From: Roseofilum capinflatum BLCC-M114
Lineage (GTDB): Bacteria; Cyanobacteriota; Cyanobacteriia; Cyanobacteriales; Desertifilaceae
NCBI RefSeq assembly: GCF_030068505.1
Contig: NZ_JAQOSO010000039.1
Location: forward strand, 1-40,075
Length of the DNA: 40,075 bases
Reading direction: 5' to 3'
Every line of letters begins with the position of its first letter. Position 1 is the first letter of the stretch. The position numbers and the translations under genes are program-made. Of the stretch, positions 7,032 to 35,521 are shown in pieces. The notes below the pieces were generated by a model. That model was not told where the DNA came from, made no database searches, and saw only the letters and a list, made by a program, of their open reading frames with translations.

Positions 7032-7049
7032 GATGGGGGAATGGGGAGT

Positions 7050-7113
7050 GCGGGCATCTTGCCCGCTTCTTAACCCGTTAGCTAGGGAGCCAGACGCTCC
7101 CACTCCGAAATAT
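7050..7113. repeat. Paired palindromic intergenic repeats
   Basis: Two adjacent hairpins fill the gap after the glutamine-synthetase-like gene. The first is GCGGGC-ATCTT-GCCCGC at 7050-7066. The second spans 7081-7113, with GGGAGC/GCTCCC arms, and recurs in inverted orientation at 29162-29194 with only two mismatches in 33 nt. They may act as a terminator or be non-coding mobile repeats. They argue against starting the next gene at the in-frame ATG at 7033. Confidence 0.7.
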
Positions 7114-7146
7114 TCTAGGTTTTGCAGCTTCACCCATTACCGATCC

Positions 7147-9828
7147 ATGCATGTAACAGGTATTAGTATTTTAGGTGGACTGGTGTTGCTGGCGATCGCC
7201 ACTTACCAAGTTTATCAACAAATTGTTCGCCGCCGCCGGGCCGAACTGAGCTTGAGACAACAAACTCAGCGAGAGCGATTAATCAACGAAATCGCCCAAC
7301 ATATCCGGCAATCTTTGAATCTGGATGAAGTGCTGGCCACGACTGTTGCCGATGTACGCCAATTTCTAGAGTGCGATCGCGTCTTAATCTATCAAATTTA
7401 TGCCGATGGAACCGGGTGCGCCATTACCGAAACCGTTTTACCCGATTATCCACGTATTTTAGGCGAAGTCTTTCCCGAAGAAGTCTTTCCCAAAGAATAT
7501 CATCAAGCATACGTTGAAGGTAAAATTCGGGCGATCGCCAACATCGAACAAGCCGAAATTGAATCCTGTTTAGTCGAATTTGTGCAACAATTCGCCGTTA
7601 AAGCCAAATTAGTCGTTCCCATCATCCAAACCCTAACCGACATTGAAAGCCCCGACAACCTGCCTCAAACGCCCCATCTGTGGGGTTTACTCATTGCCCA
7701 CCACTGTCGCCAACCCAGACAATGGCAACCCCACGAAATCGAACTGATGAAACAACTCGCCACCCAAGTGGCGATCGCCATCCGCCAATCCGAACTCTAT
7801 CAACAACTGCAACACCTCAACACCCAACTCGAACAGCGCGTCGAGCAACGCACCCAAGAACTCGCCCACACTAACCACGCCCTGCGCCTAGAAATTGCTG
7901 AACGTCAACGCACCGAAATCGCCCTCCGGCACACTAACCACACCCTACAGTCCCTCATTGCCGCCTCTCCCCGTGCCATCTTCACCCTTGACCTCCAAGA
8001 CCGGGTACAACTATGGAACCCAGCCGCAGAAAAAATGTTTGGCTGGACAGAACCAGAAGTTTACAATCAATCCAACCCCATCCTCTGCCAAGAAACCGTA
8101 GAAGACTACCGCAACCTTCGCCAAGCCTGTCTGCAAGGCATCACTCCCCCCAGTTTAGAACTGCGCCGCTCGAAAAAAGACGGCTCCCCCATTGATATTG
8201 TCTTCTCTGCTGCTCCCCTACGCGACAGCAACGACCACATTAGTGGCATGGTTGCCGTTGTCGCCGACGTTACCGAACAAAAACGGCAAGCCGAACAAGT
8301 GCGGCTGCTTCAGTCAGTCGTTGTCAATACGAATGATGCTGTTTTAATCACGGAAGCCTTCCCCCTCGATCCTCCCGGCCCCAGGATTCTCTACGTCAAT
8401 CATGCCTTTACCCGCATGACCGGTTATACCTTAGAAGAAGTGATTGGGCAAACGCCCCGTATTCTCCAAGGGCCAAAAACCGATCGCCAAAAACTGGAAC
8501 AGGTGCGAACGTCCTTGGCTCAATGGCAACCCTTAACCATGGAATTAATCAACTATCGTCAAGATGGCTCCGAGTTTTGGGTTGAGTTTAGCTTAGTTCC
8601 AGTGGCCAACAAGCATAATGAATATACCCATTGGGTTTCCATTCAGCGAGATATTACTGAACGCAAACACACGGAAGAAGCCCTGCGCCGTTCTGAAGAA
8701 CGCTTCCGTTCCCTGATTGAAAATGCCTTAGATATTATTACCCTTCTCGATCGCCGAGGAAACATTGACTATGCCAGTCCTTCCGTCGAAAAAGTTCTCG
8801 GTTATTCCCCCACTCAACTGATGGGTCAAAACTTTTTTGACTTCGTGCATCCCGATGACTCCCAGAAAATTTATCAGCACACCCTCAATAGTCTGGACAG
8901 TGAAGATGTGCTACTTCCCATGGAATTTCGCGCCCGACATCAGGACGGATCGTGGCGGATCTTAGAAGCAGTTACCCATCGAGATCAATCCGTGAGTGAC
9001 CCTGGAGGAGTTACCGAGCGCTGCCGAGGTGTAGAAACTTCCCCAGAGCTAAGAATTGTGGTCAATTCCCGCGATATTACCGCCCGCAAGCGACTGAATG
9101 AGGTGAAACTGGCTCTAGAGAGGGAAAAAGAATTGCATACTCTGAAAACTCGCTTTTTCTCCATGGCTTCCCATGAGTTTCGCACCCCCTTGAGTACGGC
9201 TCTAGCAGCGACCCAATTGTTAGAACAGTCCTCCCATCTCCATCAAGCTGAAGATCCCCTCAAACGCTCCCGTAATTTACGCAGGATACAGGATGCAATT
9301 AAACAAATAATACATCTTTTAGATGATATTCTCACCATTAATCGCGCTGAAGCAGGCAAACTGGAATTTAACCCTGAACCCCTTGATTTACAGAAGTTTT
9401 GCCGCCAGTTACTGGAAGAAATTCAGTTAAGTGCTGGTCATCAATATCCCCTGAAATTACGGAGTAATGATCATAACCCATGTGTTTACCTAGACAAAAA
9501 GCTCCTGCGATCGATTCTTTCTAATTTGTTGTCGAATGCGATTAAATATTCTCCCGTTGGCAGTGAGGTGGAACTGTCTTTAACCGTTGAGCCGCAGCAA
9601 ATTGTCTTTGCCATTAGCGATCGCGGTATCGGCATTTCCCCAGAGGATCAAAAACACCTGTTTGAACCCTTCCAACGGGGTCAAAATGTGGGCAATATTC
9701 CCGGTACAGGATTAGGCCTAGTGGTCACTAAAAAATGCGTAGAATTGCAAGGCGGCACGCTGAGAGTGGAGAGTCAGATCGACTTAGGCACAACCTTAAC
9801 CGTTATTTTACCCCTGAATCATTGTTAA
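7147..9828 (+). CDS. ccaS: CcaS-like membrane-anchored GAF/PAS sensor histidine kinase
   Basis: An 893-residue hybrid-free sensor kinase. Order of domains: one N-terminal membrane helix (about 4-20); a phytochrome/cyanobacteriochrome-type GAF (about 54-215) with Cys141 at the canonical bilin position and the typical KLVVPI and LWGLLIAHHC strands; a coiled coil; three PAS domains (about 263-378, 385-506, 516-648); HisKA with the phosphoacceptor His676 in SHEFRTPLS; and HATPase with the N box NLLSNAIKYS, G1 DRGIGI and G2 GTGLGL. CcaS, the green/red sensor of chromatic acclimation, has this plan with two PAS domains. A convergent OmpR regulator, a G-box and cpcL follow immediately, which supports the assignment. 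The start is set at ATG 7147, because the 38-residue upstream extension is translated repeat DNA. The residue after Cys141 is Leu rather than the His common in this family, and no second DXCF cysteine is visible (EEVF at that position). Bilin binding and light colour are inference. Confidence 0.8.
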   Translation: MHVTGISILGGLVLLAIATYQVYQQIVRRRRAELSLRQQTQRERLINEIAQHIRQSLNLDEVLATTVADVRQFLECDRVLIYQIYADGTGCAITETVLPDYPRILGEVFPEEVFPKEYHQAYVEGKIRAIANIEQAEIESCLVEFVQQFAVKAKLVVPIIQTLTDIESPDNLPQTPHLWGLLIAHHCRQPRQWQPHEIELMKQLATQVAIAIRQSELYQQLQHLNTQLEQRVEQRTQELAHTNHALRLEIAERQRTEIALRHTNHTLQSLIAASPRAIFTLDLQDRVQLWNPAAEKMFGWTEPEVYNQSNPILCQETVEDYRNLRQACLQGITPPSLELRRSKKDGSPIDIVFSAAPLRDSNDHISGMVAVVADVTEQKRQAEQVRLLQSVVVNTNDAVLITEAFPLDPPGPRILYVNHAFTRMTGYTLEEVIGQTPRILQGPKTDRQKLEQVRTSLAQWQPLTMELINYRQDGSEFWVEFSLVPVANKHNEYTHWVSIQRDITERKHTEEALRRSEERFRSLIENALDIITLLDRRGNIDYASPSVEKVLGYSPTQLMGQNFFDFVHPDDSQKIYQHTLNSLDSEDVLLPMEFRARHQDGSWRILEAVTHRDQSVSDPGGVTERCRGVETSPELRIVVNSRDITARKRLNEVKLALEREKELHTLKTRFFSMASHEFRTPLSTALAATQLLEQSSHLHQAEDPLKRSRNLRRIQDAIKQIIHLLDDILTINRAEAGKLEFNPEPLDLQKFCRQLLEEIQLSAGHQYPLKLRSNDHNPCVYLDKKLLRSILSNLLSNAIKYSPVGSEVELSLTVEPQQIVFAISDRGIGISPEDQKHLFEPFQRGQNVGNIPGTGLGLVVTKKCVELQGGTLRVESQIDLGTTLTVILPLNHC

Positions 9829-9831
9829 GTT

Positions 9832-10512
9832 TTAACTGGTCTCAACTTTCCCCAACCGATAACCAATACCATGCACCGTTTCAATAAAATCTTCGGGCGC
9901 ACCAGCCGCTTTTAACTTTTGACGTAAACTGCGAATATGCACTTTAATCGTATCTTCTTCTGGCGGATCTTTGAGCGACCAAATATGTTCAATCATCATA
10001 TGACGACTCAACACCCGACGACCATTACGCATCAATAATTCTAAAAGGGAATATTCTTTGGGGGTTAAATGTAGGGAGCGATCGCTATAGTTGGCTTCAT
10101 AGGTGCTAGGATCAAACCTCAAGGCTCCCCACTCTAGAATCGGAGCTGATACGCTGCCTCGACGCAAAAGGGCGCGAACCCTGGCAAATAATTCACCGAG
10201 ATCGACAGGTTTGACAATATAATCATCAGCTCCAGCATCTAAACCCGCGATTTTGTCACTAACGGTATCACGGGCTGTGATCATTAGAATCGGCATTTGA
10301 TAACCTTGAAGACGCAGTTGCTTACAGAGACTAATGCCATCAAGATCGGGAAGCATCACATCCAAGAGCAACAGGTCATAATCAAGAGCGTCAAAGTATT
10401 CCCACGCGACGGCTCCATTGGCGGCAATGTCCACAACATACAGTTGATCGGTGAGGGCTTCTGCTAGAGTCTCAGCCAGACTTATGTCATCTTCAATTAA
10501 AAGAATCCTCAT
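9832..10512 (-). CDS. ccaR: CcaR-like OmpR-family response regulator
   Basis: A 226-residue response regulator. The receiver has the acidic pocket EDD (7-9), the phosphoacceptor Asp51 in LLLDVMLPDLDG, Thr79 and Lys101. The C-terminal winged-helix DNA-binding domain ends in the characteristic HGIGYRLG. It converges on the kinase gene with only 3 nt between the stop codons and is divergent from cpcL across a 440-nt spacer. In the known CcaS/CcaR system, phosphorylated CcaR binds a direct-repeat G-box to switch on cpcL (cpcG2). A matching direct repeat lies at 10628-10649, 115 nt upstream of this gene's start, so it could also control itself. An RppA-like regulator is the main alternative by sequence alone; context makes CcaR more likely. 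Confidence 0.8.
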   Translation of the reverse strand: MRILLIEDDISLAETLAEALTDQLYVVDIAANGAVAWEYFDALDYDLLLLDVMLPDLDGISLCKQLRLQGYQMPILMITARDTVSDKIAGLDAGADDYIVKPVDLGELFARVRALLRRGSVSAPILEWGALRFDPSTYEANYSDRSLHLTPKEYSLLELLMRNGRRVLSRHMMIEHIWSLKDPPEEDTIKVHIRSLRQKLKAAGAPEDFIETVHGIGYRLGKVETS

Positions 10513-10627
10513 AGGTTACAGTTGCCTTGACTCATTTATTTCAGCTTACAAGAAAACTAAGCATATTCCCTCAGCTCTGACGAGAGCAAGTATTACAAAA
10601 TGTTAAAATCTGCGAAATTTTAGCAAT

Positions 10628-10649
10628 CTTTCCGATTTCTTTACCGTTT
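10628..10649 (+). promoter_or_regulatory. CcaR G-box (direct repeat operator)
   Basis: Two head-to-tail 11-mers, CTTTCCGATTT and CTTTACCGTTT, fit the published CcaR G-box pattern (CTTTNCNATTT repeated). The first half matches it fully and the second keeps CTTTNC and the final TTT. It lies in the ccaR-cpcL divergent spacer, 303 nt before the cpcL start. A possible -10 hexamer TAATTA is at 10661-10666, which would give cpcL a leader of more than 250 nt. The G-box match is seen in the sequence from memory of the consensus; binding and the promoter position are inferred. Confidence 0.72.
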
Positions 10650-10700
10650 CTTCCCTCTTTTAATTACTTGCCATCTGCTAAATTCCTAAGTTATGGGAAG

Positions 10701-10765
10701 TTGGTTAATTTAGACAGTTCGCTAGAGGCTGCCCACTGGGTTAGTCTCTAGCCTCCTCCAACCAA
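10701..10765 (+). promoter_or_regulatory. Stem-loop in the putative cpcL leader
   Basis: Nested complementary arms are visible: outer TTGGTT (10701-10706) with AACCAA (10760-10765), inner GCTAGAG (10721-10727) with CTCTAGC (10746-10752), and CCCA/TGGG in the loop. A second small hairpin, GATCTC-TCT-GAGATC, lies at 10779-10793. If transcription starts near the G-box, these would sit in a long structured 5' leader and could affect mRNA stability or attenuation. I see no known riboswitch class here. The rest of the 10513-10952 spacer shows nothing else I can name. Confidence 0.4.
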
Positions 10766-10952
10766 AGAATGATAGACAGATCTCTCTGAGATCAATGTCA
10801 TGCTTGAGAGTTCAGATCGCAAAAATAGGGTGAAGACCAGCCCTGAGACTTGCATATTGGCGATCGCTCAGGGATTTAGAATAGAATCATTGAGTTAGTC
10901 TGTCTTTAGGGATTTTTACTCACTCTAACCCGAAATAACATTAGGAGGTCTT

Positions 10953-11699
10953 ATGGCAATTCCCTTACTTCAATATCCCCCAACCAGTCAAAATCATCGA
11001 GTGGAGGGATTTGAAATTCCGACTCCGGAAAAGCCTCGACTCTATACCACTGAACTCTTGACTTCATCCACAGACATGGATGAACTAATTTGGGCGGCCT
11101 ATCGCCAAGTTTTTAATGAGCAACAATTGCTCTCGGTCACCTATCAGAAGTCTCTAGAGTCTCAGTTGAGATCGGGTCAAATTACAGTTCGTGATTTTAT
11201 GCGATCGCTGCTGGTCTCGGAAACCTTTCGGATACATAACTATGAACCCAATAATAATTATCGGTTTGTAGAACTGTGTATTCAACGGGTACTGGGACGA
11301 GAGGTTTATGGAGAGCGAGAAAAATTAGCCTGGTCAGTCGTTTTAGCCACTGAAGGCTTACATGGGTTCATTGACCAACTCCTCAATAGCGAAGAATATC
11401 TGACCCATTTTGGCGATCGTACCGTTCCCTATCAACGGCGGCGTATTTTGCCCCAACGTTCTCAGGGAAACTTACCCATTGCCAGGATGCCTCGTTATGG
11501 AGAAGATTATCGCCAGAAATTAGAAGAATTGGGTTATTTTCAACCCCCTAAAACAGACTATCGTTGGTCATGGCAACAGCCTCCTTATCCCGCTTGGATT
11601 CGTCTAACGGGTAAGCTCATTGCTTTCAGTGGTGCTGGATTACTAGCATTAGGAGTCGGAGCAGTCGCCTTAGCAGCCTGGGGCATTATTCCCCTATAA
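10953..11699 (+). CDS. cpcL: Phycobilisome rod linker CpcL (CpcG2-type, membrane anchored)
   Basis: A 248-residue phycobilisome linker. The PBS linker domain occupies roughly residues 35-160, with typical segments [34 protein letters not shown] and [13 protein letters not shown]. Instead of the soluble C-terminus of a rod-core CpcG, it ends in one hydrophobic helix, [20 protein letters not shown] (positions about 224-243). This is the hallmark of CpcL, which anchors rod-shaped, core-less phycobilisomes to the thylakoid membrane and passes energy mainly to photosystem I. A strong ribosome site, TAGGAGGT, precedes the ATG. A rod linker gene follows after 51 nt, and a ccaS-ccaR pair with a G-box lies upstream, predicting green-light induction. 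Assignment is confident because the C-terminal helix is diagnostic. Confidence 0.92.
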
Positions 11700-11750
11700 G
11701 GGCAACCCCAATTTTGTGAAAACAGTTTGAAAAAAATTAGGACATTCTCA

Positions 11751-12518
11751 ATGAGTATAGTATTAGATGCACCCCTTGAACTTTGGAAAACCAGTAGCTT
11801 AGATGAACAGCAAGCGGTGATTCGTGCTGTTTATAAACAAGTGTTGGGCAATCCCCATGTGATGGAAAGCGAGCGACTGGTTACGGCTGAATCTCAATTG
11901 ACCCAAGGGAAGATTACAGTGCGTGAATTTGTACGGGCGGTCGCTAAATCTGATTTTTACCGTCGCCGTTATTTTGAATCGTGCGCTCCCTACCGCTTTG
12001 TAGAGTTGAACTTCAAGCATTTATTGGGACGTGCCCCTGTGGATCAAAAGGAAATTTCCGAACATATTTCCCTGTGTATTGGGCAAGGATATGATGCCGA
12101 GATTGATTCCTACATCGATAGTATGGAATATCAAGAAAAATTCGGAGAAAACATTGTTCCCTACTATCAAGGTGCAAAGAGTCAGAGCGGACAAAAACAG
12201 GTTGGGTATAACCGTACTTTGTCCTTGTATCAAGGCAATGCGGGGGTAGATAGTGCGTTTAGGGCTTCCCGGTTGGTGCAGGAAGTGGCCACCAACTCAG
12301 CCACTAAAATTAAGTTGCCTTCTACTGGCGGTCGTCTCGTTGGGTACAAAGATGCCACAGAGAAGACGTTTGAAATTTTGGTGAAAGGATCTAAGTTTGA
12401 TGCTCCCCGTCGTGTGAGTACAACTCGATATGTCGTTTCTGGGGCAAAATTGAGTCCCCAAATCCAGCGAATTCATCGAGCAGGCGGTAAGATTGTTAGC
12501 ATTACAGAACTCGCTTAA
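11751..12518 (+). CDS. cpcC: CpcC-type phycocyanin rod linker polypeptide
   Basis: A 255-residue rod linker with an N-terminal PBS linker domain (about 15-145; segments AVIRAVYKQVLGN, ITVREFVRAVAKS, YRFVELNFKHLLGRAP, EIDSYIDSMEYQEKFGENIV). It also has a C-terminal CpcD-like capping domain (about 203-253; FEILVKGSK and IQRIHRAGGKIVSI). This two-domain order is that of the phycocyanin rod linkers CpcC1/CpcC2 that join hexamers within a rod. I start at ATG 11751, which has AGGA eight bases upstream; an in-frame TTG at 11727 would add MKKIRTFS and is less likely. It follows cpcL and is closed by a terminator, so the two form a short operon that could supply both the anchor and the extender of a rod-shaped phycobilisome. 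A distal linker for a different chromophore protein is possible. Confidence 0.88.
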   Translation: MSIVLDAPLELWKTSSLDEQQAVIRAVYKQVLGNPHVMESERLVTAESQLTQGKITVREFVRAVAKSDFYRRRYFESCAPYRFVELNFKHLLGRAPVDQKEISEHISLCIGQGYDAEIDSYIDSMEYQEKFGENIVPYYQGAKSQSGQKQVGYNRTLSLYQGNAGVDSAFRASRLVQEVATNSATKIKLPSTGGRLVGYKDATEKTFEILVKGSKFDAPRRVSTTRYVVSGAKLSPQIQRIHRAGGKIVSITELA

Positions 12519-12562
12519 TCAGCGTTATACCACTGTGCCCTGGTAGTCAATGATTAGACAAA

Positions 12563-12590
12563 AAAACAAGGGGTTGAAGCCCCTTGTTTT
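12563..12590 (+). terminator. Rho-independent terminator of the cpcL-cpcC operon
   Basis: A perfect 11-bp stem, AAAACAAGGGG / CCCCTTGTTTT, with a 6-nt loop TTGAAG, lies 44 nt after the rod linker stop. The descending arm itself ends in a T run, as in an intrinsic terminator. It separates the linker operon from the next genes. Confidence 0.85.
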
Positions 12591-12654
12591 GATCTAGAGA
12601 GTTGAGAAGTTCCGAGTGGAGAGAGCTGTGATACCCCCAGTGGCTTGTCAAAAA

Positions 12655-12945
12655 ATGCGAAATTGGATCAGAAATCGCTATTTGATCTGCTCCGGTAGTT
12701 TTTTTATCTTTCAAAGTTTAGAATATTCAGCCGTAGAACGCTTTGAAGAATGTGTCTCTAGTCTGGGTGGAACATTGATTTCCGTAGAACCGGCTAGACG
12801 GGTTTGGATTGGTCAACATCGACAGGTCATTTTGTATCAAGCAAAGGCAAGCTTACATACCCCCAATCATGGGTTAAAACAGTATTGGTTACAATACGGT
12901 AGTTTCTATACGAAGTTTAATGACCCTTGCGGCGAGGATGGGTGA
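12655..12945 (+). CDS. Small conserved-looking protein of unknown function
   Basis: A 96-residue basic, aromatic protein starting MRNWIRNRYL. I do not recognise a named family. The segment from SGSFFIFQ to GGTLISVEP has the pattern of a CpcD capping domain (SxSVFI...LGGxIVxI.P), which is notable so close to the linker operon, but the C-terminal half (ASLHTPNHGLKQYWLQYG) does not fit. An in-frame GTG at 12616 could extend the N-terminus by 13 residues; I prefer ATG 12655 because the upstream residues look unstructured and there is no better ribosome site. A terminator separates it from the linkers, and the degenerate kinase gene begins 112 nt later, so it is more likely linked with the kinase. 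Confidence 0.55.
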   Translation: MRNWIRNRYLICSGSFFIFQSLEYSAVERFEECVSSLGGTLISVEPARRVWIGQHRQVILYQAKASLHTPNHGLKQYWLQYGSFYTKFNDPCGEDG

Positions 12946-13057
12946 TCCGGGAATTGCAACTGCTTTATTCGGTTCTACTCCTAGTCAATGGGCTGAAAAT
13001 ACCGATACCCTCACAGATAATAGCTGTCATACTTGCAGAGATTGGGGGGATATGGTT

Positions 13058-14461
13058 ATGTTTGAGTGGACGCTGCCGACGTTAAGCGAGATTTTAGCAC
13101 GGGCTGAACCGATCGCCGATCGCCAAAATAAAGCCGAACGGAGTTGGTATGGGGCGATCGCCGCCTTAAATGAGTTGCTCGATCGGCTGGAAGTGGCTCA
13201 GGGGTTAATCCTCTCTAGTTCTCCGATCTTGGCCCATCCCCATCCCCAGATCACCAGTTGGCTGTTTTCGCCCCTGCAAGAAGGGCACTCTACCCTATTT
13301 CAGCTCCCTCCAGCCTCTTCCCAACCCGGACTAGGGTTGCGGTTCACTCCTGTATGGTCAGGCGATCGCCAATCTTGTCCCCTGACTCCCACCACCCCAT
13401 TACTGCCCCAAGATCCTCTGCGGGGCGAACAGTTTGCTCTGGTTTTAACCCCCTCATTGAGTTTGGTGATGGTGGTTTCTCCCCAGAAGAATACAGAGCT
13501 GGGTTTTCAGTTTTCCTTTGACCCCCAGGAGATTGAGAGCGCTTGGAGAGCCTTGCGATCGCGAGTCTCGGCGACCGGAACCCCAGACCAGATCCCCTAT
13601 CTGGAGCGCTTTTACCAGCAGTTTCCCCCCGTTGCGCCCCCCTATCAAACGGTGATGGATTTTAGTCGCTTAATGCTGCAACATCTCCCAGAACCCCAAG
13701 GAACGGGATCGACGGCTGAAAAACCCTCGGAGATCGCCAAAAAGATCGCTTCTCCAGCGCCTTCTCCTGCTTCCCCTGCTCCTCAACCCGATCTGGAGTT
13801 ACTCAAGGCGATCGCCCATGAAGTCAAAACCCCCCTAGCCACCATCCGCACCTATACACGGCTATTGCTCAAACGCTCTCATCTTCCCCCGGAAGTATTA
13901 AAACGCCTGCAAACTATCGATCGTGAATGTACGGAACAGATCGATCGCTTTAATCTGATTTTCCGGGCCGTTGAACTCGAAACCACGCCCACCAAGTCTC
14001 AATCGACTCATTTAACCCCAACCTCTCTGGCCCAGGTGTTTCAAGAGAGTATTCCTCGATGGCAAAAACAAGCCAGTCGTCGGAATGTCACCTTAGATGT
14101 GGTTTTACCCCAACAGACCCCTACCGTGGTTAGCGATCCCCATCTGTTGGATCAGGTGTTAAGCAATGTGATTCAGAATTTCACCTCCACCTTACCCACG
14201 GGTTCCCATGTGCAAGTGGAAGTAACTCCCGCAGGCGATCAACTGAAACTGCAATTAATCTCGGAAACCTCTCAAACTTGCTCCAGTTTGTCAGGGTTTA
14301 AGGCCTTGGGTCATGTGTTGATGTTTCAACCGGAAACAGGGAACTTGAGTCTCAATTTGAGCGTGACCAAAAACTTGTTTGAGGCGATCGGGGGTAAACT
14401 GTTGATTCGTCAACGACCTCAGCACGGAGAGGTGATGACGATTTTCTTACCCATCCGGTGA
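13058..14461 (+). CDS. Sensor histidine kinase with degenerate ATPase domain
   Basis: A 467-residue cytoplasmic sensor-kinase-like protein. An N-terminal sensory region (about 35-205; GAF- or DICT-like in pattern, not firmly assignable) is followed by a Pro/Ala-rich linker (about 210-244) and a clear HisKA helix with His254 in AIAHEVKTPLATIRTY. The HATPase part keeps an N-box-like LSNVIQNF (368-375) and the closing GEVMTIFLP strand. The G1 box (DxGxG) and G2 box (GxGxGL) are not recognisable in residues 395-445. ATP hydrolysis or autophosphorylation is therefore doubtful; it may be phosphorylated in trans or act as a scaffold. I start at ATG 13058, which has GGGGGA seven bases upstream, rather than an ATG at 12920 that would overlap the previous gene. 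No regulator gene is adjacent. Confidence 0.8.
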   Translation: MFEWTLPTLSEILARAEPIADRQNKAERSWYGAIAALNELLDRLEVAQGLILSSSPILAHPHPQITSWLFSPLQEGHSTLFQLPPASSQPGLGLRFTPVWSGDRQSCPLTPTTPLLPQDPLRGEQFALVLTPSLSLVMVVSPQKNTELGFQFSFDPQEIESAWRALRSRVSATGTPDQIPYLERFYQQFPPVAPPYQTVMDFSRLMLQHLPEPQGTGSTAEKPSEIAKKIASPAPSPASPAPQPDLELLKAIAHEVKTPLATIRTYTRLLLKRSHLPPEVLKRLQTIDRECTEQIDRFNLIFRAVELETTPTKSQSTHLTPTSLAQVFQESIPRWQKQASRRNVTLDVVLPQQTPTVVSDPHLLDQVLSNVIQNFTSTLPTGSHVQVEVTPAGDQLKLQLISETSQTCSSLSGFKALGHVLMFQPETGNLSLNLSVTKNLFEAIGGKLLIRQRPQHGEVMTIFLPIR

Positions 14462-29275: not shown

Positions 29276-29905
29276 TCATAGGGAAATGCTATCACCCCAA
29301 ACTCGGTGTAAATCTAACACAAAACCAGGTAAGACTTCTTCACCCGATAACTCGGTAGGATTCGATAAGATTTCTACATCTAAACCCACTCGATAAACTT
29401 CCACCGCTCTATTTTGAGGATCGATTAACCAACCCAATTTCGCCCCATTTTCCATATACTCTTGCATTTTCTCTTGCAAGGATTTCAGGGTATCCGACTC
29501 TGAGCGCAATTCCACCACAAAATCGGGGCAAATATTAGGAAATGTTCCCTTTTGTTCATCCGTCAGTGCATCCCAACGTTCTTGACTAATCCAACAGGCA
29601 TCAGGAGAGAGATTCGCGCCATTGGGTAAAATGAATCCGGTTGAAGAATCAAAAGCTTGTCCCGGTTCGCCGGTATTTCGCCACCACAAATATAATTCGC
29701 CTGAAATACTCCAATTTCGTTGTCCAGTTTCCCAACCAGTAGGTGGATTCACGATTAATTCTCCTTGTGCAGTTCTTTCTAGTCGTAAGTCTCGATTACT
29801 GGCAGCTAGAGCTTCAAATTGTGCTTGTGTGACATAGAGCTTTAGGGTTGTGGGTAATGTTAGTAAGAGCGTTTCGGTTTCGGGTTTGGTGGGTGTCTGT
29901 ACCAT
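29276..29905 (-). CDS. Uma2-family protein, tandem copy 3
   Basis: A 209-residue Uma2/DUF820 protein. Core residues of the PD-(D/E)XK-like fold are in SPDACWISQERW, CPDFVVELRSESD and QEYMENGAKLGWLIDPQNR. The start MVQTPTKPETE follows AAGAGGTCAAA, a good ribosome site. The C-terminus has four extra residues (DSISL) compared with its two neighbours, where the reading frame runs on past the common end VWG. Differences from its paralogues concentrate around residues 65-80, where it has ELYLWWRNTGEPGQ. Last gene of the tandem set in transcription order. Confidence 0.88.
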   Translation of the reverse strand: MVQTPTKPETETLLLTLPTTLKLYVTQAQFEALAASNRDLRLERTAQGELIVNPPTGWETGQRNWSISGELYLWWRNTGEPGQAFDSSTGFILPNGANLSPDACWISQERWDALTDEQKGTFPNICPDFVVELRSESDTLKSLQEKMQEYMENGAKLGWLIDPQNRAVEVYRVGLDVEILSNPTELSGEEVLPGFVLDLHRVWGDSISL

Positions 29906-29951
29906 TTTGACCTCTTGTATCCTATGGATTTATTTTATCTGATTCTAAACT

Positions 29952-30563
29952 CTAACCCCAAACTCGGCGTAAATCTAACACAAAACCAGGTAAGACTTCT
30001 TCACCCGATAACTCGGTAGGATTCGATAAGATTTCTACTTCTAAACCCACTCGATAAACTTCCACCGTTCGCTGTTGAAGATCGATTAACCAACCCAATC
30101 TCGCCCCATTTTCCATATACTCTTGCATCTTCTCTTGCAGGGATTTCAGGGTATCGGACTTTGAACGCAATTCAACGACAAAATCGGGACAAATATTGGG
30201 GAATGTTCCCTTTTGTTCATCCGTCAAAGTATCCCAACGCTCTTGACTAATCCAACAGGCATCAGGAGAACGAGTTGCACCATTGGGTAAAATGAATCCT
30301 GTTGAAGAGTCAAATGCTTCCCCCTGTTTATTTTCTTCATACCAACGATCAAGTTGTGCGATGATACTGCGGTTACGTTTTCCAGTTTCCCAACCGGTAG
30401 GTGGATTCACAATTAATTCTCCTTTTGCAGTTCTTTCTAGTCGTAAATCTCGATTGCTGGCAGCTAGAGCTTCAAATTGTGCTTGTGTGACATAGAGCTT
30501 TATGGTTGTGGGTAATGTTAGTAAGAGCGTTTCGGTTTCGGGTTTGGTGGGTGTCTGTACCAT
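29952..30563 (-). CDS. Uma2-family protein, tandem copy 2
   Basis: A 203-residue Uma2/DUF820 protein with the same core (SPDACWISQERW, CPDFVVELRSKSD, QEYMENGARLGWLID). It is separated from copies 1 and 3 by nearly identical 46-nt spacers carrying the same ribosome site, so the repeat unit includes gene plus spacer. Its variable segment near residues 65-80 reads AQLDRWYEENKQGE. The strong conservation of both ends suggests recent tandem duplication or gene conversion. Confidence 0.88.
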   Translation of the reverse strand: MVQTPTKPETETLLLTLPTTIKLYVTQAQFEALAASNRDLRLERTAKGELIVNPPTGWETGKRNRSIIAQLDRWYEENKQGEAFDSSTGFILPNGATRSPDACWISQERWDTLTDEQKGTFPNICPDFVVELRSKSDTLKSLQEKMQEYMENGARLGWLIDLQQRTVEVYRVGLEVEILSNPTELSGEEVLPGFVLDLRRVWG

Positions 30564-30609
30564 TTTGACCTCTTGTATCCTATGGATTTATTTTATCTGA
30601 TTCTAAACT

Positions 30610-31224
30610 CTAACCCCAAACTCGGCGTAAATCTAACACAAAACCAGGTAAGACTTCTTCACCCGATAACTCGGTAGGATTCGATAAGATTTCTACATCT
30701 AAACCCACTCGATAAACTTCCACCGCTCTATTTTGAGGATCGATTAACCAACCCAATTTCGCCCCATTTTCCATATATTCTTGCATCTTCTCTTGCAGGG
30801 ATTTCAGGGTATCGGACTTTGAGCGCAATTCAACGACAAAATCGGGACAAATATTGGGGAATGTTCCCTTTTGTTCATCCGTCAAAGTATCCCAGCGCTC
30901 TTGACTAATCCAACAGGCATCAGGAGAGAGATTCGCGCCATTGGGTAAAATGAATCCGGTAGAAGAATCAAAGGCTTTCCCTAAATTACCATTGTCTTCA
31001 TACCAACGACCCAATTGTACAATAATGCTAAAGTTACGTTCTCCAGTTTCCCAACCTGTCGGTGGATTCACTCTTAATTCTCCTGTTGCAGTTCTTTCTA
31101 GTCGTAAATCTCGATTACTCTCGGCTAGAGCTTCAAATTGTTCTTGCGTGACATAGAGCTTTAGGGTTGTGGGTAAGGTCAGCAAGAGCGTTTCGGTTTC
31201 GGGTTTGGCTGGTGTCTGTACCAT
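30610..31224 (-). CDS. Uma2-family protein, tandem copy 1
   Basis: A 204-residue Uma2/DUF820 protein, first of three in transcription order, with SPDACWISQERW, CPDFVVELRSKSD and GWLIDPQNR. I start at ATG 31224 (MVQTPAKPETE), preceded by AGAGGTG, because both paralogues begin there; an ATG at 31251 would add nine residues. The variable segment reads VQLGRWYEDNGNLG. It is divergent from rpoC1, with about 160 nt between starts that must hold both promoters. Confidence 0.88.
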   Translation of the reverse strand: MVQTPAKPETETLLLTLPTTLKLYVTQEQFEALAESNRDLRLERTATGELRVNPPTGWETGERNFSIIVQLGRWYEDNGNLGKAFDSSTGFILPNGANLSPDACWISQERWDTLTDEQKGTFPNICPDFVVELRSKSDTLKSLQEKMQEYMENGAKLGWLIDPQNRAVEVYRVGLDVEILSNPTELSGEEVLPGFVLDLRRVWG

Positions 31225-31384
31225 ATTCACCTCTGCGATCTTATGATTCATTTTAGGCGATCGCCTCTACAACCCAGATAAAAAGTCACCCATTCCCCAT
31301 TACTCCCTCAAAGCGCTATAATAACAGATTGGGCTAGTCCAGTTTCTCAAGGCAGCGTTATTCACCACTCATTGAGCAGCAGCA

Positions 31385-34209: not shown

Positions 34210-34400
34210 TGACGTTCTCTCCCGTCAAATCAAAGATTATGACGGGAAGCTCTCAAAAGAGACTAAGTTGAACCCATTCTCCTTTTAAAGTTTCTTGCTT
34301 CACTGGCTGACTAACGTCTAAGCCTCCACAAGCAGAAACGATGAGACCCACCGCCTGTATTTGTTCTATTGCTCGATTGAGAATATTCACCGCCGCATTT
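34210..34400 (-). ncRNA. Possible TnpB guide RNA (reRNA) region
   Basis: In IS200/IS605 elements the guide RNA of TnpB overlaps the 3' end of tnpB and the transposon right end, with the guide read from flanking DNA. This position holds the last tnpB codons and the 34220-34247 hairpin. The guide would then begin near 34209 and read into the host gene on the minus strand. This is inference from the family; the exact ends are not visible. Confidence 0.35.
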
Positions 34401-35521
34401 TCGTCGCGATCCATTATTAATCCGCATTTCGGACATTCGTGAGTACGAATTGATAGAGTCTTCGGAACTTTTGCACCACAATTGCTACAATTTTGACTGG
34501 TGCCGTGAGGATTTACTTTTACTACCCGGACACCGCATTTTACTGCCACTGTTTCCAAGATATTAATAAATTGTCCCCAGGCTACATCAAGAACTGATGA
34601 AGCTAATCGAGTACGGGCTAATCCCTTAATATTTAAGTCCTCTACTGCTATTAAGTCATAGGTTTTAACTAGGGCATGGGCTATTTTATAATGAAAATCT
34701 TTTCGCTGGCGGGCTATTTTTTGATGAAGTTTAGCAATTTGGTTTTGTTGCTTCAGATAATTAGACGAGCCTTTCTGTTTTCTTGCTAATCGACGTTGCT
34801 GATGGGCTAGATGTTTTTGAGCCTGGCGATAGTGTTGTTTAACGGCAACGGTTTCTCCGTTAGAAGTTGTTAAAAATTCTTTAAGTCCGACATCTGCTCC
34901 TACTGCTGATTTGATGGTTTCTAACGGCAATAGTTGAGCGATTGTGTCATCTTTAATTACCAAACAAACGTAGTAACCATCTGCTTTTTTGACAATTGAT
35001 GCGGTTTTCAGTTCAAAACCTTCTGGAATAGGACGATGCCTGATAACGAGAATTTTCCCCAATCGTGTCGTTATCAGATTTTTCCCATCAAATTTAATTG
35101 TGGATTTCGGATGATTAACTCTCGAAAACTCAAACGATCTCAACTGTCCTGCTTTTTTAAACCTCGGTCGCCCTCCTCTCTTGCCACTTTTATCGGGGAC
35201 TCTCCATTTTTTCCATGCCTTATCTAATCTTTGCAGATTAATTTGTTGCACTTCCGAATAGATTTCTTGGTATTCAGGGAACAAAACCTTGGTTTCTTTA
35301 AGTGCTGCTTGTTGCGTGTAGTAATTGACCTGTTCTGGTATCTCGCCAATAGGTTCAGACACTAAACTACATCGATCTATTTGAGAACGAGTTCGCCTTA
35401 AATAGTCCAACCTTTGACCTAAAGCATAGTTCCAATGTCGCCGCAGTAGTTCTAGCCACCAATCGATTTGGGCCGCCTGTTGATTTGTTGGGCGCAATCG
35501 GTACTCGTAGGTTAAAATCAT
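34253..35521 (-). CDS. tnpB: TnpB RNA-guided nuclease of IS200/IS605
   Basis: A 422-residue TnpB, the RNA-guided DNA nuclease ancestral to Cas12. All three RuvC acidic residues are present: Asp210 in AVGADVGLKEF, Glu294 in LIAVEDLNIKG and Asp373 in MDRDENAAVN. The zinc ribbon CSNCG (345-349) and CPKCG (363-367) is intact. The N-terminal helix-turn-helix region (YEYRLRPTNQQ) and the arginine-rich recognition part are complete. TnpB promotes retention of its transposon by cutting the donor site after excision. Here the partner tnpA is broken, so the element cannot move by itself unless served in trans. It is divergent from tnpA with 28 nt between. Confidence 0.94.
   Translation of the reverse strand: MILTYEYRLRPTNQQAAQIDWWLELLRRHWNYALGQRLDYLRRTRSQIDRCSLVSEPIGEIPEQVNYYTQQAALKETKVLFPEYQEIYSEVQQINLQRLDKAWKKWRVPDKSGKRGGRPRFKKAGQLRSFEFSRVNHPKSTIKFDGKNLITTRLGKILVIRHRPIPEGFELKTASIVKKADGYYVCLVIKDDTIAQLLPLETIKSAVGADVGLKEFLTTSNGETVAVKQHYRQAQKHLAHQQRRLARKQKGSSNYLKQQNQIAKLHQKIARQRKDFHYKIAHALVKTYDLIAVEDLNIKGLARTRLASSVLDVAWGQFINILETVAVKCGVRVVKVNPHGTSQNCSNCGAKVPKTLSIRTHECPKCGLIMDRDENAAVNILNRAIEQIQAVGLIVSACGGLDVSQPVKQETLKGEWVQLSLF

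Follow-up and report, generated by a model that had tools for sequence, protein, structure and literature searches.

The stretch analysed here (the window, 40,075 nucleotides) is contig NZ_JAQOSO010000039.1, or C39, of the 5.37 Mb, 120-contig genome of Roseofilum capinflatum BLCC-M114. It carries a locus for the light sensor CcaS and its response regulator CcaR, next to a putative target operon that pairs the rod-membrane linker gene cpcL with phycoerythrin-related genes. A first-pass annotation of this DNA named ccaS, ccaR, a G-box and cpcL, and all four were recovered in place; it overlooked a cpeR-like open reading frame (ORF) at 12616-12945 and the hairpin at 12563-12590. The parts of the locus are as follows.

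7147..9828, plus strand: ccaS, predicted membrane-anchored green/red cyanobacteriochrome histidine kinase, 893 aa (Pfam, GAF matches, key residues)
9832..10512, minus strand: ccaR, OmpR-class response regulator, convergent with ccaS and divergent from cpcL (Pfam, best-match orthology)
10628..10649, plus strand: G-box, two abutting 11-mers, presumed CcaR site, 115 bases from the ccaR start and 303 from the cpcL start
10953..11699, plus strand: cpcL, rod-membrane linker with a hydrophobic C-terminal segment (PF00427, CpcL structure match)
11751..12518, plus strand: cpeD-type phycoerythrin rod linker, 255 aa (PF00427 and PF01383, CpeD clade)
12563..12590, no strand assigned: 11-12-pair hairpin in the cpeD-cpeR gap, which may act as an attenuator or processing site
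12616..12945, plus strand: cpeR, phycoerythrin-operon activator (co-occurrence with CpeB, operon position)

Gaps of 51 bases between cpcL and cpeD and of 97 bases between cpeD and cpeR divide the three genes, and the best reading of the arrangement is a single cpcL-cpeD-cpeR operon, probably co-transcribed and driven from the G-box.

The kinase ORF spans 7033-9828, and its conserved start is most likely at 7147, matching the starts of relatives. Its product has the architecture expected of CcaS, an N-terminal membrane helix followed by a cyanobacteriochrome GAF domain, PAS domains and a histidine kinase, as described in PMC5121610: a hydrophobic N-terminal segment (mean hydropathy 1.89 over 19 residues) precedes Pfam matches to GAF, three PAS, HisKA and HATPase. 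The same source gives two PAS domains for the CcaS of Synechocystis sp. PCC 6803 (PMC5121610), as against the three in the window CcaS. For comparison we used the best 80 of 396 loci by GAF similarity, a choice that favours CcaS by design; some duplicate genomes (e.g. L054 = L120, L055 = L145, L057 = L154) are included in the 73-, 80-, 81- and 85-row counts given in this text. The three PAS domains, entertained as a peculiarity of the window CcaS, were dropped as such since they are the commoner form, with 57 of the 80 CcaS rows covering all three by alignment coverage.

Among solved structures, the window GAF domain is best matched by 8k9o (E 9.1e-56; listed as a histidine kinase) and by RcaE, 7ckv (E 2.2e-49). 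Glu112, Cys141, Leu142 and Lys154 are identical in RcaE and in 85/85 CcaS rows, the window and duplicates included; we take Cys141 to be the bilin ligand and the other three to be residues of the protochromic photocycle. These residues do not single CcaS out, because all four are also retained by a GAF domain within a 1931 aa frame on another contig (L187, C1:35720-36280), perhaps a second green/red sensor. When the CcaS GAF of Synechocystis salina was searched against the R. capinflatum genome, the window came first at 275 bits, the next GAF scoring 155 bits. In the GAF tree the window joins the Roseofilum rows (5 rows, support 100/100), and this group joins four metagenome-assembled genomes (two Symploca, one Richelia, one Oscillatoriales) with weaker support of 89/89.

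The regulator gene runs from 10512 to 9832, converging on ccaS with 3 bases between the stop codons. Its query was again taken from S. salina, whose cluster reads ccaR-cpcL-146 aa-ccaS, presumably the gene order of PCC 6803 as well. S. salina CcaR finds the window CcaR first (348 bits, 71%) and the next paralogue at 289 bits, and so the gene beside ccaS encodes an OmpR-class regulator that is an orthologue of known CcaR. As in other CcaSR systems, a G-box direct repeat stands between ccaR and its presumed target operon, formed by the 11-mers CTTTCCGATTT and CTTTACCGTTT that abut at 10628-10649. The repeat equals the published Synechocystis G-box, CTTTCCGATTTCTTTACGATTT (PMC8256508), at 20/22 bases.

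Conservation of this site reaches across dozens of loci. Within the 700 bases upstream of ccaR, a strict motif is found at ≤2/18 mismatches in 64/73 loci, compared with 1/1,460 shuffles and a best reverse-strand score of 4, the 73 being those of 87 entries that have a ccaR match and enough upstream sequence. The window G-box differs from the strict consensus at 1 of 18 positions; of the nine loci outside the 64, seven carry a site with 3 or 4 mismatches and the other two, L146 and L157, one with 6. A degenerate G-box pattern, composed after the window site had been seen, has its sole exact match in the 5.37 Mb genome at 10628-10649. Only that exact match carries weight, because at ≤2 mismatches genome-wide the pattern gives 3 matches and its reversed control 6. 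The stretch from G-box to cpcL (10650-10952) measures 303 bases here and about 170 in R. halophilum (L102), a difference in leader of about 130.

The product of 10953-11699 aligns with solved CpcL (8hfq) over residues 1-247 of 248 (E 3.4e-97) and ends in a hydrophobic 19-mer at residues 230-248 (mean 2.19). A cpcL gene with a hydrophobic C-terminal helix thus lies inside the CcaSR cluster, as in the CA1 type of chromatic acclimation, and with the identities of ccaS, ccaR, G-box and cpcL upheld, control of cpcL by CcaSR, which the first-pass annotation proposed, is still the best reading.

The second linker changes the picture. When 49 linker rows (46 different) were placed in a tree, the product of 11751-12518 grouped with the middle linker of cpeC-cpeD-cpeE-like operons in the 16-row CpeD clade (100/99). 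A linker on contig C110 of the same genome belongs to the CpeC clade (17 rows, 100/98), and the phycocyanin linkers, represented by 4 distinct rows, make up a clade of their own. The labels CpeC, CpeD and CpeE are our own assignment, guided by gene order rather than by a named family model. The second linkers of the cpe operons carried on plasmids in Gloeothece and Rippkaea share 76 and 74% identity with the window product. Two other identities were considered and set aside: CpeC, since the product groups with the middle gene of the cpeCDE-like operons and the CpeC clade holds the C110 linker, and the phycocyanin linker CpcC, since phycocyanin linkers form their separate clade. In S. salina, a genome without CpeB over the cut-off (best 209 bits), the phycocyanin linkers directly follow a phycocyanin-like subunit.

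Eight PF00427 domains were found in the R. capinflatum genome: those of cpcL and cpeD, the CpeC-type linker on C110, a CpcG-like one on C82, three on C101 that sit in one 894 aa ApcE-like frame, and an odd one on C24. No CpcC-clade phycocyanin linker is among these eight, gaps in the assembly being possible. On C24 (L060, 1919-3143) there is an unusual pair, a 157 aa diverged phycobiliprotein-like ORF beside a 238 aa linker-like ORF. Two sister genomes have an extra linker just 3' of ccaS, at L049 12177-12968 in G001 and at L050 10694-11482 in G002; that of G001 sits between ccaS and ccaR and joins the CpeE-like clade, its exact place there being weakly supported.

The last gene of the putative operon starts with GTG at 12616 or, going by homologues, at 12628. 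Its product has no match in Pfam, NCBIfam or PHROGs, and it was named CpeR by co-occurrence and operon position. In an order-wide draw of 291 genomes, a CpeR match is present in 109/110 genomes with CpeB over the cut-off (G246 being the CpeB genome that lacks one) and in 15/181 without CpeB. On plasmids of Gloeothece PCC 7424 and Rippkaea PCC 8801 the cpeR orthologues, annotated as hypothetical, come last, after linker, linker, phycobiliprotein lyase and CpcT/CpeT lyase, an order close to the cpeCDESTR operon named in the title of a reference in PMC4443024. The same source describes phycoerythrin as induced in green light by CpeR (PMC4443024). On a third plasmid, from Pseudanabaena PCC 7367, the linker before the cpeR match is only 46% like the window linker and resembles the CpeE-like one more. 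A connection between cpeR and phages was rejected: there were no phage matches, and the 3 plasmid records are all cyanobacterial, with the gene amid phycobilisome genes. Overlapping the 3' end of cpeR is a HisKA-type kinase ORF at 12920-14461, whose true start may be further downstream; a match to it follows cpeR in L049, L051 and L052 but not in L053.

The genome as a whole bears on what this operon might serve. The first-pass annotation held that the strain has no phycoerythrin and no cpe genes, a view that arose because only one window was looked at. No cpeBA is among the window ORFs, but the window itself has the cpeD-type linker and cpeR, and the genome has cpeB, cpeA, cpeY, pebA and pebB: contig C56 encodes CpeB, CpeA and CpeY (325, 295 and 686 bits against curated cut-offs of 275, 225 and 600), and contig C100 encodes PebB and PebA (468 and 366 bits against 327 and 263), beside which lie cpcB (325 bits, cut-off 279) and cpcA (294, cut-off 269). 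In the sister genome G001, cpeBA lies about 4 kb beyond cpeR, and R. reptotaenium is described in PMC4284477 as rich in phycoerythrin. The cluster therefore shows the features of CA2, a phycoerythrin linker (of CpeD rather than CpeC type) and CpeR in a CcaSR cluster with phycoerythrin genes in the genome. CA7, in which the CcaSR operon carries phycoerythrocyanin (pec) genes, does not apply: the window cluster holds no phycobiliprotein subunit gene. Phycoerythrocyanin-like subunit genes occur in other loci (e.g. L120, L161). Nor does the whole circuit fit inside 5.5 kb, as had been proposed, since the output reaches cpeR at 12945 and presumably extends to cpeBA on another contig.

Between cpeD and cpeR, the hairpin at 12563-12590 is nearly identical in 4 Roseofilum loci (the window, L102, L104, L049). 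We surveyed gaps of 25-399 bases after dropping four near-duplicate loci, the remaining rows still being related. An uninterrupted hairpin of ≤-12 kcal/mol, a threshold chosen after the folds had been seen, occurs in 14/23 linker-to-cpeR gaps and is missing from the other 9/23; it occurs in 4/42 other gaps (4/30 linker-linker, 0/12 cpeR-linker; Fisher 2e-5). Collapsed by eye to distinct hairpins, the counts are 8/17 against 4/42 (p 0.003). Likewise, the native fold beats all 30 shuffles in 16/23 linker-to-cpeR gaps, compared with 6/30 linker-linker and 2/12 cpeR-linker gaps. The hairpins before cpeR are unlike in sequence between lineages and stand in the same place in several. No known RNA family is found in the window at gathering score, and no account of a hairpin before cpeR is among the best literature matches. 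From its position, we might guess that the hairpin serves to hold cpeR down in relation to the linkers.

Relatives place this architecture among known variants. In 66 of 81 loci (the window and 80 others) both ccaS and ccaR are present, the other 15 being incomplete; 59 of the 66 have ccaR, a divergent operon and then ccaS, 6 have ccaS converging on ccaR (the window, two Roseofilum, L106, L125, L140), and 1 has another layout. Within 9 kb of ccaR, cpeR is found in 35 of the 65 loci of known layout and both cpeR and cpcL in 18, though in a few (L148, L168) cpeR belongs to a separate cpe operon; 13 of the 65 have subunits of phycocyanin or phycoerythrocyanin type and no cpeR. A combination of CA1 and CA2 is thus not unusual, because 18/65 loci pair cpeR with cpcL.

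Among described systems, the CcaSR operon of Nostoc punctiforme ATCC 29133 contains phycoerythrin genes and cpcL (PMC12461855), and R. capinflatum resembles it in having CcaS, CcaR, cpcL and phycoerythrin genes in one cluster that is probably light-controlled here too. It differs in that its linker is of CpeD type, with cpeC elsewhere (contig C110), and in its convergent ccaS and ccaR; in L122 and similar Nostoc loci, ccaS comes after the operon. With the CA1 cluster of PCC 6803 it shares CcaS/CcaR, a near-identical G-box and cpcL; PCC 6803, however, has no green-absorbing antenna pigments (PMC12461855), whereas the Roseofilum genome has phycoerythrin genes. The S. salina cluster, which stood in for that of PCC 6803, yielded no cpeR. 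The CA2 operon of Geminocystis sp. NIES-3708 holds CpeC and CpeR under CcaSR (PMC4424290); Roseofilum likewise joins CcaSR to a phycoerythrin linker and CpeR but adds cpcL, which the Geminocystis operon lacks. The plasmid operons of Gloeothece PCC 7424 and Rippkaea PCC 8801 share cpeD- and cpeR-like genes with Roseofilum, as does the same-genus control genome G004, where cpeBA and cpeC-, cpeD- and cpeR-like genes lie together. Unlike in the window, the CpeC-type linker in all three stays beside the CpeD-type one, and in the stretches compared neither ccaS nor ccaR is matched and every G-box-like site has at least 4 mismatches. In G004 even the best ccaS match is not a close one (E 4.8e-34), and its cpe stretch lacks a G-box (best 4 mismatches).

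Taken together, we consider it highly probable that a CcaS/CcaR green/red switch drives cpcL-cpeD-cpeR from the G-box and that CpeR in turn activates cpeBA, combining CA1 and CA2 as has been reported for Nostoc punctiforme. What the sequence shows directly is the genes and their domains, the key residues, the conservation of the G-box and the phycoerythrin genes; from these we infer bilin binding, phosphotransfer, transcription as an operon, the action of CpeR on cpeBA and the direction of the light response. In green light CcaS, with phycocyanobilin on Cys141, would phosphorylate CcaR, and phosphorylated CcaR would bind 10628-10649 and switch the operon on; in red light the operon would be off. 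CpcL would anchor rods to photosystem I, CpeD would extend them with phycoerythrin, and CpeR would activate cpeBA elsewhere in the genome. If the cpcL-cpeD-cpeR operon is indeed G-box-driven, green light should therefore raise both photosystem-I rods (CA1) and, via CpeR, phycoerythrin (CA2).

Several observations weigh against this interpretation. The GAF tree, of the kind the first-pass annotation suggested building, does group the window with CcaS rows, but it did not separate RcaE from CcaS; the single RcaE row forms a long branch that the tree does not place, and it is synteny and best matches that carry the CcaS label. In the R. capinflatum genome, the regions upstream of cpeBA, cpeC, cpcBA and pebAB have no G-box (best 6-8 mismatches); direct control of these genes by CcaR was set aside on this ground, and phycoerythrin control would depend on CpeR. 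The hairpin between cpeD and cpeR, finally, could end transcription before cpeR is reached. Were it to do so, CcaSR would control cpcL and cpeD only, cpeR would be expressed separately and phycoerythrin would escape colour control. The T-rich end of the hairpin and its retention in the 4 Roseofilum loci examined favour this; yet the terminator scan scored the hairpin higher in its minus-strand form, 35/65 loci of known layout have cpeR no more than 9 kb from ccaR (a few of them with cpeR in a separate cpe operon), and the published Geminocystis NIES-3708 operon under CcaSR includes cpeR (PMC4424290). We regard termination before cpeR as unlikely.

A purely CA1 switch, tuning CpcL rods of phycocyanin alone in a strain without phycoerythrin, would account for CcaS, CcaR, the G-box and cpcL, and for window ORFs that lack cpeBA. 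Its premise is refuted by cpeBA, cpeY, pebA and pebB scoring over curated cut-offs in the genome, and cpeD and cpeR within the operon also make unlikely the version in which the rod-shaped phycobilisome alone is regulated and phycoerythrin is unchanged; the phycocyanin-only switch is accordingly very improbable. Least probable of the readings weighed is a relic locus that has kept its sensor and lost its response to light colour. The lack of a close ccaS in G004, of the same genus, is in keeping with such loss, but the frames are intact in four other Roseofilum genomes examined, the four key GAF residues, the H-box and the regulator are kept, and so is the G-box in the three of those four genomes that were scanned.

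Elsewhere in the window, three tandem similar ORFs on the minus strand (29276-31251) are Uma2-like, going by their resemblance to a Uma2-type ORF. An ORF of 422 aa at 34253-35521 is TnpB-like, named by the look of its sequence alone, and an ORF at the contig end (39351-40067) is built of PAPEVVKP-like repeats.

The locus may also bear on coral black band disease. In disease lesions the dominant cyanobacterial bin, Cya2, has 99% 16S identity to R. reptotaenium according to PMC5240343, which lists cpcA, cpcB, cpeA, cpeB, cpeD, a 'cpcG' linker, psaC, psaE, psaF and psaJ as raised in Cya2 and apcB, psbA, psbC, psbH and also psaA and psaB as lowered. No paper joining Roseofilum with CcaS or CpcL is among the best literature matches. 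Two of the raised groups, cpeD and cpeBA, are predicted outputs of the Roseofilum operon; the 'cpcG' of the lesion transcriptome might be cpcL; and a rise of rod genes with a fall of the core gene apcB is what core-less CpcL rods would ask for. Points against such a link are that psaA and psaB go down, that cpcAB go up as well, and that the authors attribute the shift to sulfide (PMC5240343). It is conceivable, though we hold the idea tentatively and with more doubt than belief, that CcaSR is a single lever that puts phycoerythrin-bearing, core-less rods on photosystem I and lies behind the lesion shift, which would favour photosystem-I work in sulfidic mats, while a pre-cpeR hairpin that arose separately in several lineages holds cpeR lower.

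Overall, the circuit is one already understood in outline, and the locus is real and well conserved, with a light response that is predicted from its parts. The analysis provides a G-box footprint obtained over dozens of loci, and the hairpin suggests the testable idea that the dosage of cpeR is controlled separately from that of the linkers. What was read as CA1 becomes CA1 together with CA2, in a genus whose members include the dominant cyanobacterium in black band disease of corals, and the operon is a genetic candidate behind the lesion transcript shift reported in PMC5240343.

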